From contig CANJRA010000014.1 of the NCBI GenBank assembly GCA_947476625.1, positions 1 to 64,000 of the forward strand: a stretch of DNA of 64,000 bases. The letters are read 5' to 3'. Both the position numbers and the translations under genes were made by a program. The notes beneath the pieces were generated by a model. The model was given only the letters and a program-made list of their open reading frames with translations, was not told the origin of the DNA and ran no database searches. Source of the DNA: Fidelibacterota bacterium (GTDB lineage Bacteria > Pseudomonadota > Alphaproteobacteria > Rhodospirillales > Rhodospirillaceae). Within the stretch, counting starts at the first letter, position 1; every line of letters begins with the position of its first letter. Of this stretch, positions 2,732-9,128 are shown one piece after another.

Positions 2732-3850
2732 ATGGCCCGCGCCAAGAAAAAACCTATCAAAAAGATCAAAGCTAAAGTGAAGCCGAAGGCTAAGAAGCCC
2801 GCGGTGAAAAAGGCTGCCGTGAAAAAGGTTGTGGCCAAGAAGGGCGCGATCAAGAAACCCGTTAAGAAGCCGGTCGCTAAGAAGCCAGTGGTTAAAAAGC
2901 CCGTGGCTAAAAAGAAAGTGGCGAAGAAAGTTGCGCCCGCCGCTAAACGGGCACGCGCGCCTGCAGTCAAAACCTCTACGCCGAAAAAGCCGCTCGACTT
3001 TCAATCGCTGATTCTGAAGCTGCAGAAGTTCTGGGCCGACCAAGGCTGCGTCATTCTGCAGCCCTACGATATGGAGATGGGCGCAGGCACATTTCATCCG
3101 GCGACGACATTGCGCGCGCTGGGCAAAGATTCGTGGAGCGCTGCCTATGTGCAGCCCTCGCGCCGTCCAACCGATGGCCGTTACGGCGAGAACCCGAACC
3201 GCTTGCAGCACTACTATCAGTTTCAAGTGATCATGAAGCCGTCGCCGGCGGACCCGCAGGCGCTGTATCTCGAGAGCTTGAAAGCTATCGGCATCGATGT
3301 GAACGCGCACGACATTCGCTTTGTCGAAGACGACTGGGAAAGCCCGACGCTGGGCGCCTGGGGCCTTGGCTGGGAAGTGTGGTGCGACGGCATGGAAGTC
3401 ACGCAGTTCACGTACTTCCAGCAAGTCGGTGGAATTGAATGCGATCCGGTCGCGGTAGAGTTGACCTACGGCTTGGAACGCTTGGCGATGTATGTGCAGG
3501 GCGTCGAGAACGTGTTTGATCTCGATTTCAATGGCCGCGGCGTGACGTATGGCGACGTGTTCCACCGCGCCGAGGTCGATTACTCCGCGCACAACTTCGA
3601 GCATGCCGATACCGACATTCTGTTCGAGCGTTTCAAGTCTTGCGAAAAAGAGTGCAACGCGCTTTTGGATAAAAAACTCGCGCAGCCGGCCTACGATCAG
3701 TGCATCAAGGCATCGCATACGTTTAATCTTCTCGATGCGCGCGGCGTCATCAGCGTCACCGAACGCGCGGCGTATATCGGCCGCGTGCGTGCGCTGGCCA
3801 AATTATGTTGCGAAGCCTGGCTCGCACCTACCAACGCGAAGGCGGGGTAA
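2732..3850 (+). CDS. glyQ: Glycyl-tRNA synthetase alpha subunit with basic N-terminal tail
   Basis: Class II aminoacyl-tRNA synthetase alpha chain of the bacterial alpha2beta2 GlyRS. The catalytic core starts near residue 88 ([19 protein letters not shown]) and carries the motifs [32 protein letters not shown] and TYFQQVGG. A typical GlyQ is about 290-300 residues; this frame has 372 because of an 87-residue tail made almost only of Lys, Ala, Val and Pro (repeats such as KKPVAKKPV), like histone H1 or AlgP. The ATG at 2732 is the only ATG before the core, although internal GTG codons could also start translation. glyS follows after five bases. Confidence 0.93.
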
Positions 3851-3855
3851 CAGCC

Positions 3856-5928
3856 ATGTCCGAACTTCTCCTCGAAATCTTCTCGGAAGAAATTCCCGCG
3901 CGTATGCAAAAGCAGGCGGCGGCGGATCTCGCGCGTCTGGTGGGCGATGCCCTGAAAACAGCGGGCCTTGAAACGAAATCCCTCACTGCATTCGGCGGTC
4001 CGCGCCGCCTGACGCTGGTGGCCGACGGCTTGCCCAAAGCGCAGCCCGACACCGCCGAGGAACGCAAAGGCCCGCAGGTCGGCGCGCCCGAACAAGCCGT
4101 TCAAGGTTTCTTGCGCGCGGCCGGGCTGACAAGTCTGGATCAAGCCGAACAGCGCGAGATGCCGAAGGGCATGTTCTATTTCGCGGTCACGACCAAAAAA
4201 GGCCGTCCGACCGCCGAAGTACTTAAAGACATCATTGAAACTGCGTTGGCGCAGTTGCCGTGGCCGAAGTCGATGCGTTGGGCCGATAAGCCGACGCGTT
4301 GGGTGCGCCCACTCCATAGTATTTTGTGCGTGCTCGACGGCAAGGTTGTGCCTGTGTCCTTCGGCGGACTCACGGCCGGCAATGCCACGCGCGGACATCG
4401 TTTCCTCGCGCCGGCGGTTTTCGCTGTGAAGAACTTCGCTGATTATAAAGCGCGGCTGAAGACGGCCTATGTGCTGGTTGATCCGGCCGAACGCAGCGCC
4501 ATCATCGCCGATACGCTGGTCAAGCTGGCCGCGAAAGAAAGCCTGACGGTGCAGGATGATTTAGGCCTGTTGGCCGAAGTCACCGGTCTCGCCGAATGGC
4601 CGGTGCCGTTGCTGGGCACGATCGATGCCGCTTTCATGCATGTGCCCGCCGAAGTGCTGACCTCGGCCATGCGCAAGCATCAGAAGTATTTCACGCTCAT
4701 CACCAAGCAGGGCGCTTTCTCGCCGCGTTTCGGCGTGGTCGCCAATATGGAAACGGCGGACAAGGGCAAAGCCATCATCGCCGGGAACGAGCGCGTACTG
4801 CGGGCGCGCTTGTCGGATGCGCGGTTCTTCTGGGATCAGGATAAAAAGCGCACACTCGAAAGCCGTTTGCCGAAATTGGAAGAACGCGTGTTCCAAGCCA
4901 AGCTCGGCACCATGCGTGCGAAGGTTGACCGGATTGCGGCGCTTGCGGGATATCTCGCTTCGCCCATCGGCGCCGACGCCGAACAAGCCCGCCGTGCGGC
5001 GCTGTTGTGCAAAGCCGATCTCTCGTCCGACATGGTCGGGGAGTTTCCCGACCTGCAGGGCGTCATGGGCCGCTATTACGCGCTGGCCCATAACGAGCAA
5101 GAAGATGTGGCCGACGCCATCGCCGAACATTACTCGCCGCTCGGCCCCAACGATTCATGCCCGACCGCGCCGCTGAGTGTTGTGGTTTCGCTGGCGGATA
5201 AACTCGACAGCCTCGCCGGCTTCTTCGCCATCAACGAAAAGCCGACGGGCTCGAAAGACCCTTATGCCTTGCGCCGCGCAGCACTCGGCGTGATCCGCAT
5301 AATTCTCGAAAACAAATTGCGGCTGCCGCTGCTGGCCGCGTTTGAATTCGCCATCGGCGGATACAACGGTCTGGCACAAGACAGCGCGCGTGAAAAAGTC
5401 TCCCGCGAGATTCTCGACTTCTTTGCCGACCGCTTGAAAGCGCACTTGCGCGATAAAGGCGTGCGTCATGATCTCGTGTCGGCGGTGTTTGCACTCGGCG
5501 ATGAAGACGATCTCGTGCGCCTGATCGCGCGCGTCGAAGCGTTAGCCGGCTTTGTCGCCAGCGATGATGGCGCCAATCTGCTGGTTGCTTACCGTCGTGC
5601 CGCCAACATCGTGCGCATCGAAGATAAGAAAGACAACGTCACCTATAGCGGCGACATCGCTGACGGTGATCTCGGCGCGCCGGAAGCGTCGGCGTTGTTG
5701 TCGGCGATTGGCACTGTCGAGGCCACCGTGACCCCGGCACTGGCGAAGGAAGACTTCACGGCCGCCATGGGCGCGCTCGCGAGTTTGCGTCAGCCGGTCG
5801 ATACCTTCTTCGACAAGGTGAAGGTCAACGCCGACGACCCCACGCAACGCGTGGCGCGGCTTCGGCTATTGTCCCGGATCGAGGCCGCCATGAATAAGGT
5901 CGCGGATTTCTCGAAAATTGAGGGTTAG
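3856..5928 (+). CDS. glyS: Glycyl-tRNA synthetase beta subunit
   Basis: 690-residue beta chain of GlyRS, which holds the anticodon-binding and HD-like tRNA-recognition regions. The family N-terminus [17 protein letters not shown] is present and fixes the start at 3856, five bases after the glyQ stop, although the frame is open further upstream. Characteristic stretches include TWAD-like [16 protein letters not shown] and RHQKYF-type [10 protein letters not shown], and the conserved C-terminal [14 protein letters not shown] near the end. Length is normal and the frame intact. The gene is followed by a 300-bp gap containing a large inverted repeat. Confidence 0.96.
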
Positions 5929-5953
5929 CTTCGCCCTCAGCCCAAACTACACC

Positions 5954-6075
5954 GTCATGCCCGGGCTTGACCCGGGCATCCAGGGTGGCCGGGTGCGATG
6001 TCGGTGGCGGGGCCGTTTTTTCCGCATGGATTCATGCCGCTAACCCTGGATCCTCGGGTCAAGCCCGAGGATGAC
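5954..6075 (+). repeat. Alphaproteobacterial-type palindromic intergenic repeat
   Basis: Two 33-base arms (5954-5986 and 6043-6075) are near-perfect inverted copies. Each arm is itself a hairpin: ATGCCCGGG/CCCGGGCAT with loop CTTGA, and ATCCTCGGG/CCCGAGGAT with loop TCAAG. The outer CCAGGGT/ACCCTGG pair joins them into a cruciform-like structure. Elements with this look are scattered between genes in many alphaproteobacteria. It may also end transcription from glyS, although no long T-run follows. No second copy was seen in this window. Confidence 0.75.
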
Positions 6076-6106
6076 ATGGGTGCATGAGGCTTGATGACAC
6101 CCTAAA

Positions 6107-6228
6107 TGTAAGCTCCTCTCGTAAAATTCGGCCTACTTACGCAATTTTTACGTAAGTCCGGTGTTGTAAGCTCCTCATTTTCGTCCTATTTAAGGTCACC
6201 TTACCTTACCGGGAAAGTGGAGCTTACA
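6107..6228 (+). promoter_or_regulatory. Putative operator region of the HTH-dikinase gene
   Basis: Three copies of one word surround the start: TGTAAGCTCCTC at 6107-6118, the same at 6165-6176 (58 bases apart), and the inverse GGAGCTTACA at 6219-6228, directly before the ATG at 6231. Between the first two lies a second inverted repeat, ACTTACG (6135-6141) and CGTAAGT (6151-6157), with a 9-base A/T-rich spacer. The third copy overlaps the likely Shine-Dalgarno GTGGAG, so a bound protein could block both transcription and translation. That the HTH of the downstream protein binds here is inference. Confidence 0.45.
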
Positions 6229-6230
6229 TC

Positions 6231-9128
6231 ATGCGGGACAATGCTCTCGAGCGAGCGATCACGGAATCGGGCGGCACAGCCGCTTTAGCCCGCACCATTA
6301 ATGTAACCCCCCAAGCCATCAGTCAGTGGGACCGCGTTCCCGCCGAACGGACCATCGCGGTCGAGCAGGCCACGGGCGGGAAGGTCACCCGCCACGAGTT
6401 ACGCCCCGACCTCTATCCGCCTCCGGCCGGCGCAAGTTCAACGCCGTCGTCGACGACGACCGAAACCGCTAAATGGGTCTACACCTTCGGCGCGGGTAAA
6501 GCCGAAGGTGCGGCTGTCATGAAGAACCTGCTGGGCGGCAAGGGTGCCAACCTCGCCGAGATGAGCAGCATCGGCGTTGCTGTCCCGCCGGGCTTCACGG
6601 TGACGACCGAGGTCTGCACCTACTACTACGCCCACGGCAAACAGTACCCCGGCGACCTGAAAGAACAGGTCGCGCGCGGCATTGCAGAGGTGGAAGCGCA
6701 CATCGGCTCTAAATTCGGCGATGTGAAGAATCCGCTGCTGGTCTCGGTGCGCTCCGGCGCGCGTGCGTCCATGCCCGGCATGATGGATACGATCCTCAAC
6801 CTCGGCCTCAATGACGAAACTGTCGAAGGTCTGACGTCGCAGGCGAAAGATGCGCGCTTTGCCTACGACAGCTATCGCCGCTTCATTCAGATGTATTCCA
6901 GCGTCGTGCTGGGCATGGATCATTACGACTTCGAGCAAATTCTCGATATCGCCAAGGAAGACAAAGGCATCTCGCTCGACACGCAATTGACCGCCGACGA
7001 TCTGAAGGCGCTGGTCGATGCCTATAAAAAGAAGATCGAGGAAGAAACCGGCGCGCCGTTCCCGCAGGATGTCCACGCGCAGTTGTGGGGTGCTGTCGGT
7101 GCGGTCTTCAGCAGCTGGATGAATCAGCGCGCCATCACCTATCGCAAACTCCATGACATTCCGCATGGTTGGGGTACCGCCGTCAACATCCAGGCGATGG
7201 TCTTCGGCAATATGGGCGACGATTGCGCGACGGGTGTGTGTTTCAGCCGCGATCCGTCGACCGGAGCGAATACGTTCTATGGCGAGTATCTGGTGAACGC
7301 GCAGGGCGAAGACGTTGTCGCCGGTATTCGCACGCCGCAGCAAATCACCATCGAAGGTAAGAACGCGCAGGGCTCGAATTTGCCGGCGATGGAAGAGGCG
7401 ATGCCGTCCTTGTTCCAGGAACTCATGGAAACGCGCCATCGCCTCGAGCGCCATTACACCGACATGCAGGACATGGAGTTCACCATCCAGAAGGGCAAGC
7501 TCTGGATGCTGCAGACGCGCAACGGCAAACGCACGGTGCAGGCGGGCTTCAAGATCGCGGTGGATATGGCGCGCGAGGGATTGATCTCGGAAGACGAAGC
7601 CGTCAGGCGCATCAACCCGTCGCAGCTCGACCAATTACTGCACCCGATGCTGGACCCGAAAGCGCCGCACACATTGTTGTCGCGCGGCCTGCCGGCTTCG
7701 CCTGGCGCTGCGTCTGGTAAGATTGTGTTCACCGCCGAGGATGCAGAGGATTGGGTCAAGCGCGGCGAGAAGGTGATTCTCGTGCGCCGTGAAACCAGCC
7801 CCGAGGACATCGGCGGCATGCATGTCTCGCAAGGTATTCTGACGACGCGCGGCGGTATGACCAGCCATGCGGCGGTTGTGGCGCGCGGCATGGGTACGCC
7901 CTGTATCTGCGGCGCGGGCGATATCAATGTTGATGTTCAAGCCAAAACCGCACGCGTGCGCGATAAGATCCTGCTGGAAGGCGACATCCTGACGCTCGAC
8001 GGCTCGACGGGTGAAATCTTTCTCGGCAAGGTCGCGACCGTTCAGCCGGAACTCACCGGCGACTTCGCCACGCTCATGGGCTGGGTCGATAAAATCCGCC
8101 GCTTGAAAGTGCGCGCCAACGCCGAAACCCCGCTGGATGCTGAAACCGCCCGCAAATTCGGCGCGGAAGGTATCGGCCTTTGCCGCACCGAGCATATGTT
8201 CTTCGACCCCGCGCGCATCCTCACCATGCGCCAAATGATTTTGGCCAAGGATGCCGGGGGGCGCAAAGCGTCGCTCGACCGATTGCTGCCGTTCCAGCGC
8301 GGCGATTTCATCAAGCTGTTTTCGATCATGGAAGGTCTGCCGGTCAACATCCGCTTGCTCGATCCGCCACTGCACGAATTCCTGCCGCATACCGATGTCG
8401 AAATCCGCGAAGTCGCGGCGGGGCTCGGCGTGTCGGAAGAATCGGTGCGCGAAGCCTTGGTGCGCCTGCACGAAACCAACCCCATGCTCGGCCACCGCGG
8501 CGTGCGTCTCGGCGTTTCGCATCCCGAGATTTACACCATGCAGGCGCGCGCGATTTTCGAGGCGGCGGTCGCCGTCGCGAAGCTCGGCAAGAAGGTGCTC
8601 CCGGAAATTATGATCCCGCTGGTCGGCATGCGTGCCGAACTCGACATGATGAAAACCATCGTCGATGAGACGGCGAAGGCGGTTTTTGCCAATACCGGCA
8701 CGACCGTGGAATATCTCGTGGGCACGATGATCGAATTGCCGCGCGCCGCATTGCAAGCGGGCGACATCGCCAAGACCGCCGAGTTCTTCTCGTTCGGCAC
8801 CAACGACCTCACGCAAACCACGCTGGGTTTATCGCGCGACGACTGTGCCAATCTGATCGAAATATATAAGGCGAAAGGTATCTTTGAAAAGGATCCCTTC
8901 GCCAGTCTCGATCAAGTAGGTGTCGGCGAACTGGTTGCGATGGCCGCTGAGCGCGGCCGTCTGACACGTAAAGGCATGAAGCTCGGCGTCTGCGGCGAAC
9001 ACGGCGGTGATCCGGATTCCATCGCCTTCTTCCACCGCACCGGCCTCGACTATGTTTCGTGCTCGCCTTACCGCGTGCCGGTCGCTCGCCTCGCGGCGGC
9101 GCAGGCGGTTCTGGCCGAGAGAAGTTAG
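6231..9128 (+). CDS. ppdK: Pyruvate phosphate dikinase with N-terminal YdaS/Cro-like HTH
   Basis: 965 residues in one frame. Residues 1-65 form a YdaS/Cro-type helix-turn-helix (GGTAALARTINVTPQAISQW, then GGKVTRHELRPDLYPP, the usual end of such prophage-type repressors). A Ser/Thr-rich linker (about 66-77) leads to a full PPDK of about 888 residues that interconverts pyruvate, ATP and phosphate with PEP, AMP and pyrophosphate. The nucleotide-binding part starts AKWVYTFGAGKAEG; the phosphohistidine is His546 in GGMTSHAAVVARGMG; the C-terminal PEP-binding barrel has GTNDLTQ and LGVCGEHGGDP. PPDK is normally 870-900 residues without an HTH. The stop overlaps the ygfZ stop from the other strand by four bases. 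No ATG between the HTH and the dikinase offers a clean separate start. Confidence 0.93.
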   Translation: MRDNALERAITESGGTAALARTINVTPQAISQWDRVPAERTIAVEQATGGKVTRHELRPDLYPPPAGASSTPSSTTTETAKWVYTFGAGKAEGAAVMKNLLGGKGANLAEMSSIGVAVPPGFTVTTEVCTYYYAHGKQYPGDLKEQVARGIAEVEAHIGSKFGDVKNPLLVSVRSGARASMPGMMDTILNLGLNDETVEGLTSQAKDARFAYDSYRRFIQMYSSVVLGMDHYDFEQILDIAKEDKGISLDTQLTADDLKALVDAYKKKIEEETGAPFPQDVHAQLWGAVGAVFSSWMNQRAITYRKLHDIPHGWGTAVNIQAMVFGNMGDDCATGVCFSRDPSTGANTFYGEYLVNAQGEDVVAGIRTPQQITIEGKNAQGSNLPAMEEAMPSLFQELMETRHRLERHYTDMQDMEFTIQKGKLWMLQTRNGKRTVQAGFKIAVDMAREGLISEDEAVRRINPSQLDQLLHPMLDPKAPHTLLSRGLPASPGAASGKIVFTAEDAEDWVKRGEKVILVRRETSPEDIGGMHVSQGILTTRGGMTSHAAVVARGMGTPCICGAGDINVDVQAKTARVRDKILLEGDILTLDGSTGEIFLGKVATVQPELTGDFATLMGWVDKIRRLKVRANAETPLDAETARKFGAEGIGLCRTEHMFFDPARILTMRQMILAKDAGGRKASLDRLLPFQRGDFIKLFSIMEGLPVNIRLLDPPLHEFLPHTDVEIREVAAGLGVSEESVREALVRLHETNPMLGHRGVRLGVSHPEIYTMQARAIFEAAVAVAKLGKKVLPEIMIPLVGMRAELDMMKTIVDETAKAVFANTGTTVEYLVGTMIELPRAALQAGDIAKTAEFFSFGTNDLTQTTLGLSRDDCANLIEIYKAKGIFEKDPFASLDQVGVGELVAMAAERGRLTRKGMKLGVCGEHGGDPDSIAFFHRTGLDYVSCSPYRVPVARLAAAQAVLAERS

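Follow-up and report, generated by a model that had tools for sequence, protein, structure and literature searches.

Why should an enzyme at the node between phosphoenolpyruvate (PEP) and pyruvate carry, at its very beginning, a DNA-binding domain of the kind that bacteriophages use to run their genetic switches? The question is raised by a 64,000-nucleotide stretch of contig CANJRA010000014.1 (assembly GCA_947476625.1, deposited as Fidelibacterota bacterium and placed by GTDB in the Rhodospirillaceae), hereafter the window, in which one gene at 6231..9128 on the + strand joins a YdaS/Cro-type helix-turn-helix (HTH) to pyruvate phosphate dikinase (PPDK) in a protein of 965 residues. An initial annotation, made from the letters of the window, had suggested that this enzyme may repress its own synthesis through operator-like repeats at its own start. 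From comparison with bacterial relatives and with phages we consider it probable that a phage cro gene, captured together with its operators, became an autogenous repressor of PPDK.

A phage-type domain at the head of a central enzyme

The reading frame runs from an ATG, with an AGTGGAG-like ribosome site immediately 5' of it, through 965 codons without interruption, and the intact joining of an HTH to a full PPDK that had been described for it is borne out by matches to Pfam PF15943 and to TIGR01828. Residues 6-63 (6246..6419, + strand) match the YdaS_toxin family PF15943 at 8e-20 over profile positions 1-62 of 65, and so form a complete domain, while residues 9-55 match P22_Cro (PF14549) at 1e-12; the HTH also resembles the transcriptional repressors of PHROG 35 (3.6e-20) and, among solved structures, the Cro protein of PDB 3bd1 (7.5e-11) and, more weakly, 2pij (0.0085). 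Likeness to the YdaS and P22 Cro repressors extends over the whole HTH, but those relatives are mostly small, free proteins, whereas here the domain heads a 965-residue enzyme. Because it is joined to PPDK in a single frame, the HTH is a derived domain rather than a phage Cro standing free as a switch protein opposite a CI-type repressor; no search for a CI-type gene or a prophage elsewhere in the window was made. The toxin reading invited by the Pfam name was rejected: PMC8630535 makes the case that YdaS of CP-933P is an analogue of Cro, which leaves a footprint on its own promoter and represses it, with the exact site left open there.

Residues 81-960 (6471..9110, + strand) match the PPDK equivalog family TIGR01828 over its full length with 1365.8 bits against a cut-off of 843.45, and align end to end with the solved PPDK structures 2x0s and 1kbl, so that the chain shares with ordinary PPDKs a full-length catalytic part and its motifs. 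The catalytic-loop motif GGMTSHAAVVARGMG begins at residue 541 (loop 541-555), which places the phospho-carrier histidine at residue 546, as first annotated, with its codon at 7866..7868 (+ strand). This motif and RTEHMFF, RLLDPPLHEF, SFGTNDLTQ and CGEHGGDP are invariant in all 25 full-length fused proteins, and GTMIELPRAAL is nearly so; we take these to be the phospho-carrier histidine loop and the PEP-site motifs. The fusion protein is, we infer, a working PPDK. The linker between the two parts (residues 64-80; 6420..6470, + strand) had been singled out as rich in Ser and Thr, a feature that is not conserved, for among the 25 fused proteins it varies from 11 to 21 residues and its sequence drifts from one relative to the next.

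Full-length PPDKs that start with the HTH were found in 23 of 61 genomes searched, that of the window included; in G005 the HTH and PPDK parts lie on two contigs, and the other long PPDKs of this set start near query residue 64-80 or are fragments. A profile search with the HTH gave a match in 37 of the 73 genomes of the family. The fusion is carried by 36 of them, in frames of at least 965 residues in 33 and cut by a contig end in three (G005, G088 and G090), and the remaining match, in G069, is a separate frame of 98 residues belonging to an unrelated, free-standing gene; an HTH gene of its own, closed by a stop codon ahead of the dikinase, which had been named at the outset as an arrangement that would speak against the proposal, was thus not met with among these matches. 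When 17 PPDKs from genomes without the fusion (16 of the 36 that lack the HTH, and G069) were placed in a tree, all fell outside the fused set. A recheck of 20 family genomes returned no PPDK match in G017, G021, G065 and G090, in the last because the contig ends inside the gene, and only parts of one in G063 and G067. In the otherwise complete genome G080, PPDK lies in two pieces with an in-frame TGA (C1:2274382-2277034).

Beyond the family, the HTH was matched in 10 of 199 genomes sampled from the order, PPDK fusions being confined to this family. A peptide-pattern scan of one genome per species (84,980 species), which misses any gene lacking the chosen peptides, yielded 64 loci: this gene at 34 of them and other genes at 30. 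PPDK follows the HTH in 33 of the 34, the last being cut by a contig end, and the 34 are labelled mostly as Rhodospirillaceae, other alphaproteobacterial or Marinimicrobia metagenome assemblies. In a PPDK tree built by a quick method, in which one fused row (L095) was flagged as long and odd in composition, a single branch with support 100 splits 25 fused from 33 unfused proteins. Because one branch separates them, one capture suffices, and the fused PPDKs make up a conserved clade of one origin in this tree; the related genomes in these comparison sets are not independent samples.

Selection within this clade has not fallen evenly along the chain. Pooled over 99 close pairs of the 25 full-length fused genes (eight of 33 were left out for want of a full-length frame in the fetched stretch), the ratio of non-synonymous to synonymous substitution rates (dN/dS) is 0.071 in the HTH, 0.136 in the enzyme and 0.78 in the linker, so that constraint on the DNA-binding head is no weaker than that on the enzyme, and the linker is left to drift. 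Such strong constraint on residues 2-63 argues against a translation start after residue 65. That a mis-assembly or a mis-called start had simply joined two genes is a negligible prospect and was rejected, as although those relatives that bear names come from metagenomes or uncultured organisms, the frame of at least 965 residues is uninterrupted in 33 of the 73 family genomes and its HTH is under purifying selection.

An array of boxes in front of the fused genes

In front of the window gene, the putative operator half-site TGTAAGCTCC stands at 6107..6116 and again at 6165..6174 (both + strand), and nowhere else on the + strand of the window. Its inverse, GGAGCTTACA, occurs on that strand solely at 6219-6228, across the ribosome site, while the half-sites ACTTACG (6135..6141, inverted and assigned to the - strand) and CGTAAGT (6151..6157, + strand) are likewise found on the + strand of the window only at these places; the repeats of the initial annotation are all present. 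Seven boxes of the form GTAAG/CTTAC fall within 6108-6227, and elsewhere in the window no separate stretch of 150 bp holds more than two. Two candidate dyads, neither assigned a strand, match TGTAAG-N5-CTTACA at 10 of 12 positions: TTTAAG-GTCAC-CTTACC at 6189..6205 and, 23 bp from it and over the ribosome site, GGAAAG-TGGAG-CTTACA at 6212..6228.

Does this array accompany the HTH in relatives? The 150 bp upstream of 33 distinct fused genes (a set that replaced an earlier list of 45 upstreams containing near-copies with shifted starts) hold 173 boxes, from three to eight per gene, against a mean of 13.2 in 200 dinucleotide shuffles (sd 3.4; highest value 24). They crowd towards the start codon, with 45-48 per kb over the final 100 bp, some 10 per kb between -100 and -200 and 1-2 per kb beyond; none lies in +1..+50 of the genes, and every one of the 33 has at least one box in -30..-1. 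The search of relatives for the upstream sites, which the initial annotation had called for, therefore found the array only alongside the HTH: unfused PPDKs, in the family as in the order, begin directly with the PPDK domain, and the 26 that served as controls, whose upstream stretches often run into the coding sequence of the upstream gene and are not purely intergenic, hold three boxes in total, at most one each, and not one dyad that reaches 9/12. Of the fused loci, three (L016, L052 and L094) failed the motif filter and were left out of the 33; the filtered-out loci, as contigs listed under L086, L076 and L094, have 4, 2 and 6 boxes.

Within the 33 upstreams, pairs in which one half is allowed to be weak favour a spacing of 5 bp: GTAAG-N5-CTT occurs 23 times, against 0 and 3 for the neighbouring spacings, and AAG-N5-CTTAC 28 times, against 1 and 4. 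The operator is read as TGTAAG-N5-CTTACA, usually as one strong and one weak half, and a dyad matching it at 9/12 or better stands before 30 of the 33 genes. Such dyads are most often 22-28 bp apart, some lie 120-150 bp ahead of the start, and box number, order and orientation differ among relatives.

The same dyad recurs where no ppdK is present. The best-scoring unfused HTH of the order sample (E 1e-26) lies in G229, a genome of another family, in a gene that is divergent from a phage-type repressor and has PHROG 204 and 210 family genes downstream; in front of this prophage cro gene stand GTAAG-AAATA-CTT and GTAAG-CATAA-CTTAC. Viral contigs scanned for the YdaS/Cro class of HTH yielded 56 loci, of which 50 are distinct once six near-copies are dropped, and 15 of the 50 carry TGWAAG-N5-CTTWCA at 11 or 12 of 12 positions within 130 bp upstream, where shuffles lead one to expect 0.13. 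The phage locus L245 has a perfect TGTAAG-TATGG-CTTACA, and L235, L246 and L249 have three sites each, spaced 18 and 23 bp. The fetched phage and prophage relatives of the HTH are mostly free proteins of fewer than 120 residues, some with this operator dyad before their gene, and HTH and box appear on this evidence to be tied to each other independently of ppdK.

As for the surroundings of the array in the window, it lies in the 302-bp gap between ppdK and an upstream gene that is glyS-like by eye (3805..5928, + strand). In six unfused relatives the end of the glyS-like gene is at most some 170 bp ahead of ppdK, and in some fused relatives the upstream neighbour appears to be different. A scan of 5850-6300 found no terminator. 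Between glyS and the array, a large interrupted palindrome (CCCGGGCTTGACCCGGGCATCC ... GGATCCTCGGGTCAAGCCCGAGGATGAC) at 5957-6078 resembles, by eye, a dispersed intergenic palindromic element, and farther upstream an open reading frame like glycyl-tRNA synthetase alpha (2732-3850) has a long, histone-like N-terminal extension rich in Lys, Ala and Pro (again by eye).

Probable self-repression and its rivals

Because the architecture is conserved, the box array was found only with the HTH (33 fused genes against 26 unfused controls), and some phage relatives share the operator, self-repression is the reading that best suits these comparisons. A prophage-type cro gene and its operator array would have been captured ahead of ppdK in the ancestor of the clade and fused to it in frame, and the Cro domain would still bind the TGTAAG-N5-CTTACA sites that lie within 120 bp upstream of the gene's start. 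As HTH-PPDK accumulates it would repress its own transcription, from sites that extend over the ribosome site, and PPDK dimers would probably supply the paired HTHs that a dyad needs. The outcome would be a concentration-dependent negative autoregulation, an abundance thermostat as in Cro and in PutA (trifunctional proline utilization A). According to PMC5293562, PutA is a metabolic enzyme with an N-terminal DNA-binding domain that acts on its own regulon, and HTH-PPDK likewise has enzyme and DNA-binding domain in one chain; PutA, however, uses a ribbon-helix-helix and HTH-PPDK a phage Cro-type HTH with matching operators, and substrate-driven switching is reported for PutA.

Several observations weigh against self-repression, beginning with the mixed nature of the unfused controls. 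Comparison with relatives and phages supports the sites strongly, but the promoter was not located: a scan of 5850-6300 found no sigma-70-like promoter, so that an overlap of operator and promoter would be hypothetical. Each dyad in the window consists of one strong and one weak half, and perfect N5 dyads do not simply follow one another in the array, exact GTAAG-N5-CTTAC occurring only twice in the fused set, where spacings of N10 (10 occurrences) and N28-N32 (up to 11) are commoner; these last probably reflect distances between sites. In three of the 33 fused upstreams the boxes form no dyad that scores at least 9/12, the fused gene L076, outside the 33, has only two boxes, and 35 of the 50 phage loci fall below 11/12. 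The search for a wider regulon, with a three-box pattern in 19 genomes of the genus, gave two matches in the genome of the window, both at ppdK, and has little power, since a backwards control pattern gave more (three forward, one reverse), so that single-site targets may exist elsewhere.

The rival that survives best makes the enzyme a sensor as well, its catalytic state, PEP, pyruvate or ATP, or phosphorylation by the regulatory protein altering its affinity for DNA, so that occupancy would report flux much as in PutA. The fusion does keep its active-site motifs, a homologue of the PPDK regulatory protein (PF03618) is present in 68 of the 73 family genomes, that of the window among them, and proline-driven switching of PutA offers a precedent (PMC5293562). 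We nonetheless hold such sensing to be unlikely, as a linker variable in both sequence and length argues against a tightly coupled allosteric path, and PF03618, found in relatives whether or not their PPDK is fused, does not follow the distribution of the fusion.

Less likely still is a role for the HTH as an activator, or as a tether that holds the enzyme to DNA. The dyads found 120-150 bp before some starts lie where an activator might sit; yet a box in -30..-1 in all 33 fused genes fits blocking, and the phage relatives are repressors by class (PHROG 35; YdaS, PMC8630535).

It is more doubtful again that the boxes belong to another regulator or to a structure in the leader RNA, with the HTH as a passenger. 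GTAAG-N5-CTTAC could equally form an RNA hairpin, but a passenger would hardly be constrained more strongly than the enzyme it rides on, the same dyad stands ahead of a prophage cro gene, of phage loci and of an HTH fused to a different enzyme, and the varying number, order and orientation of the boxes, with their many weak halves, are unlike a conserved RNA fold.

Other enzymes with an HTH tag

PPDK is not the only enzyme so tagged. A search of 385 alphaproteobacterial genomes with PF15943 found 23 places in 20 genomes, 12 of them in frames of at least 271 residues: HTH-PPDK itself, an NAD(P)H-hydrate enzyme, MurA and nine proteins of the TorD/nitrate-reductase-delta type, four of these nine recognised by Pfam and the rest by eye. 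The fusion to NAD(P)H-hydrate epimerase/dehydratase, a repair enzyme (L281:823-2547, G264:C86), has TGTAAG-CATAA-CTTACG 27 bp before its start, which combines the dyad of PPDK with the spacer seen in the G229 prophage. The same class of HTH is fused to MurA in L283:1005-2471 (G564:C2) and in L296 (G673:C1), with a TTACTAA/TTAGTAA dyad ahead of the start in both genomes; this dyad is similar to the GTTTAGTAA repeats that PMC8630535 describes in the CP-933P prophage. From the order sample comes a fusion to ketopantoate reductase with CCTACAA repeats upstream (L220:1900-3222, G239:C27). The TorD-type fusions (L282, L284-L291 and most of L098-L123, mostly Rhizobiales) include several with CATAG/CTATG inverted repeats upstream. 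Across 398 genomes sampled from the phylum, matches occurred in 39 genomes outside the class, never in a frame of more than 215 residues.

A related small N-terminal HTH, the carph-isopro domain of NCBIfam (NF046037), is likewise fused to biosynthetic enzymes; the window HTH differs in belonging to the YdaS/Cro branch, and its 28.6 bits against this family fall under the cut-off of 38. The domain was matched in 83 of the 385 alphaproteobacterial genomes, often in long frames. Among 28 loci chosen by hand and not at random, 18 have, behind the HTH, an enzyme of biosynthesis or central metabolism or the partner of one: CarA in three (L300, L301, L319), HisZ-like proteins in seven (L309, L310, L314-L318), ArgB in five (L308, L311-L313, L321) and PyrB (L322), SerA (L304) and PdhA (L323) in one each. 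Ten of these enzyme fusions were confirmed by Pfam and seven of the ten also by NCBIfam, while several of the ArgB and HisZ places and that of PdhA score under the curated carph-isopro cut-off. The other ten loci (L299, L302, L303, L305-L307, L320, L324-L326) are by eye a different type of protein without an enzyme, in which the same kind of N-terminal HTH is followed by an apparent membrane anchor and a coiled coil.

Do these genes, too, have repeated sites upstream? Set against 200 shuffles, with the reservation that the sequences of a fusion group are related and non-independent, repeated 6-mers exceed every shuffle for CarA (TGGGAA, 10 copies in three genes), two HisZ groups and the TorD group, and are borderline for MurA and ketopantoate reductase (19 shuffles as high for each); they do not stand out for ArgB (38 shuffles as high), PyrB (60), PdhA (66), SerA (194) or the NAD(P)H-hydrate enzyme (199). 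For perfect dyads, the shuffles as high number 2 for MurA and for the NAD(P)H-hydrate enzyme, 6 for CarA, 8 for TorD, 20 for ketopantoate reductase, 19 for PyrB, 0 and 34 for the HisZ groups, 87 for ArgB, 97 for PdhA and 200 for SerA. CarA fusions share upstream dyads of the type TGGGAA-N5-TTCCCA, and one HisZ group has TTCATA-N3-TATGAA dyads. Searches of the open literature returned no description of fusions of an HTH with PPDK, or of an N-terminal HTH with a carbamoyl phosphate enzyme, and did not find the domain name carph-isopro.

Taking the YdaS/Cro-tagged cases (PPDK, the NAD(P)H-hydrate enzyme, MurA, ketopantoate reductase and the TorD-like chaperones) with those that bear the related HTH (CarA, HisZ, ArgB, PyrB, SerA and PdhA), we are slightly inclined to believe that Alphaproteobacteria repeatedly make enzymes into self-repressors by capturing a phage-Cro-type HTH tag and its operators, so that an enzyme's own abundance, and perhaps its catalytic state, would set its transcription. 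Few enzymes are, to our knowledge, on record as repressing the genes that encode them by means of a DNA-binding domain in the same chain, PutA being one example. Here a central enzyme has apparently received a phage switch module, protein and sites alike, which strong selection has maintained across a whole clade, and as the sites before phage cro genes and before the HTH-PPDK gene are alike, self-repression is directly testable with short DNA and an 80-residue domain. If the same holds for the wider set of HTH-tagged proteins, it would amount to a general and largely unnoticed way of wiring the control of abundance, or of end product, into biosynthetic genes.

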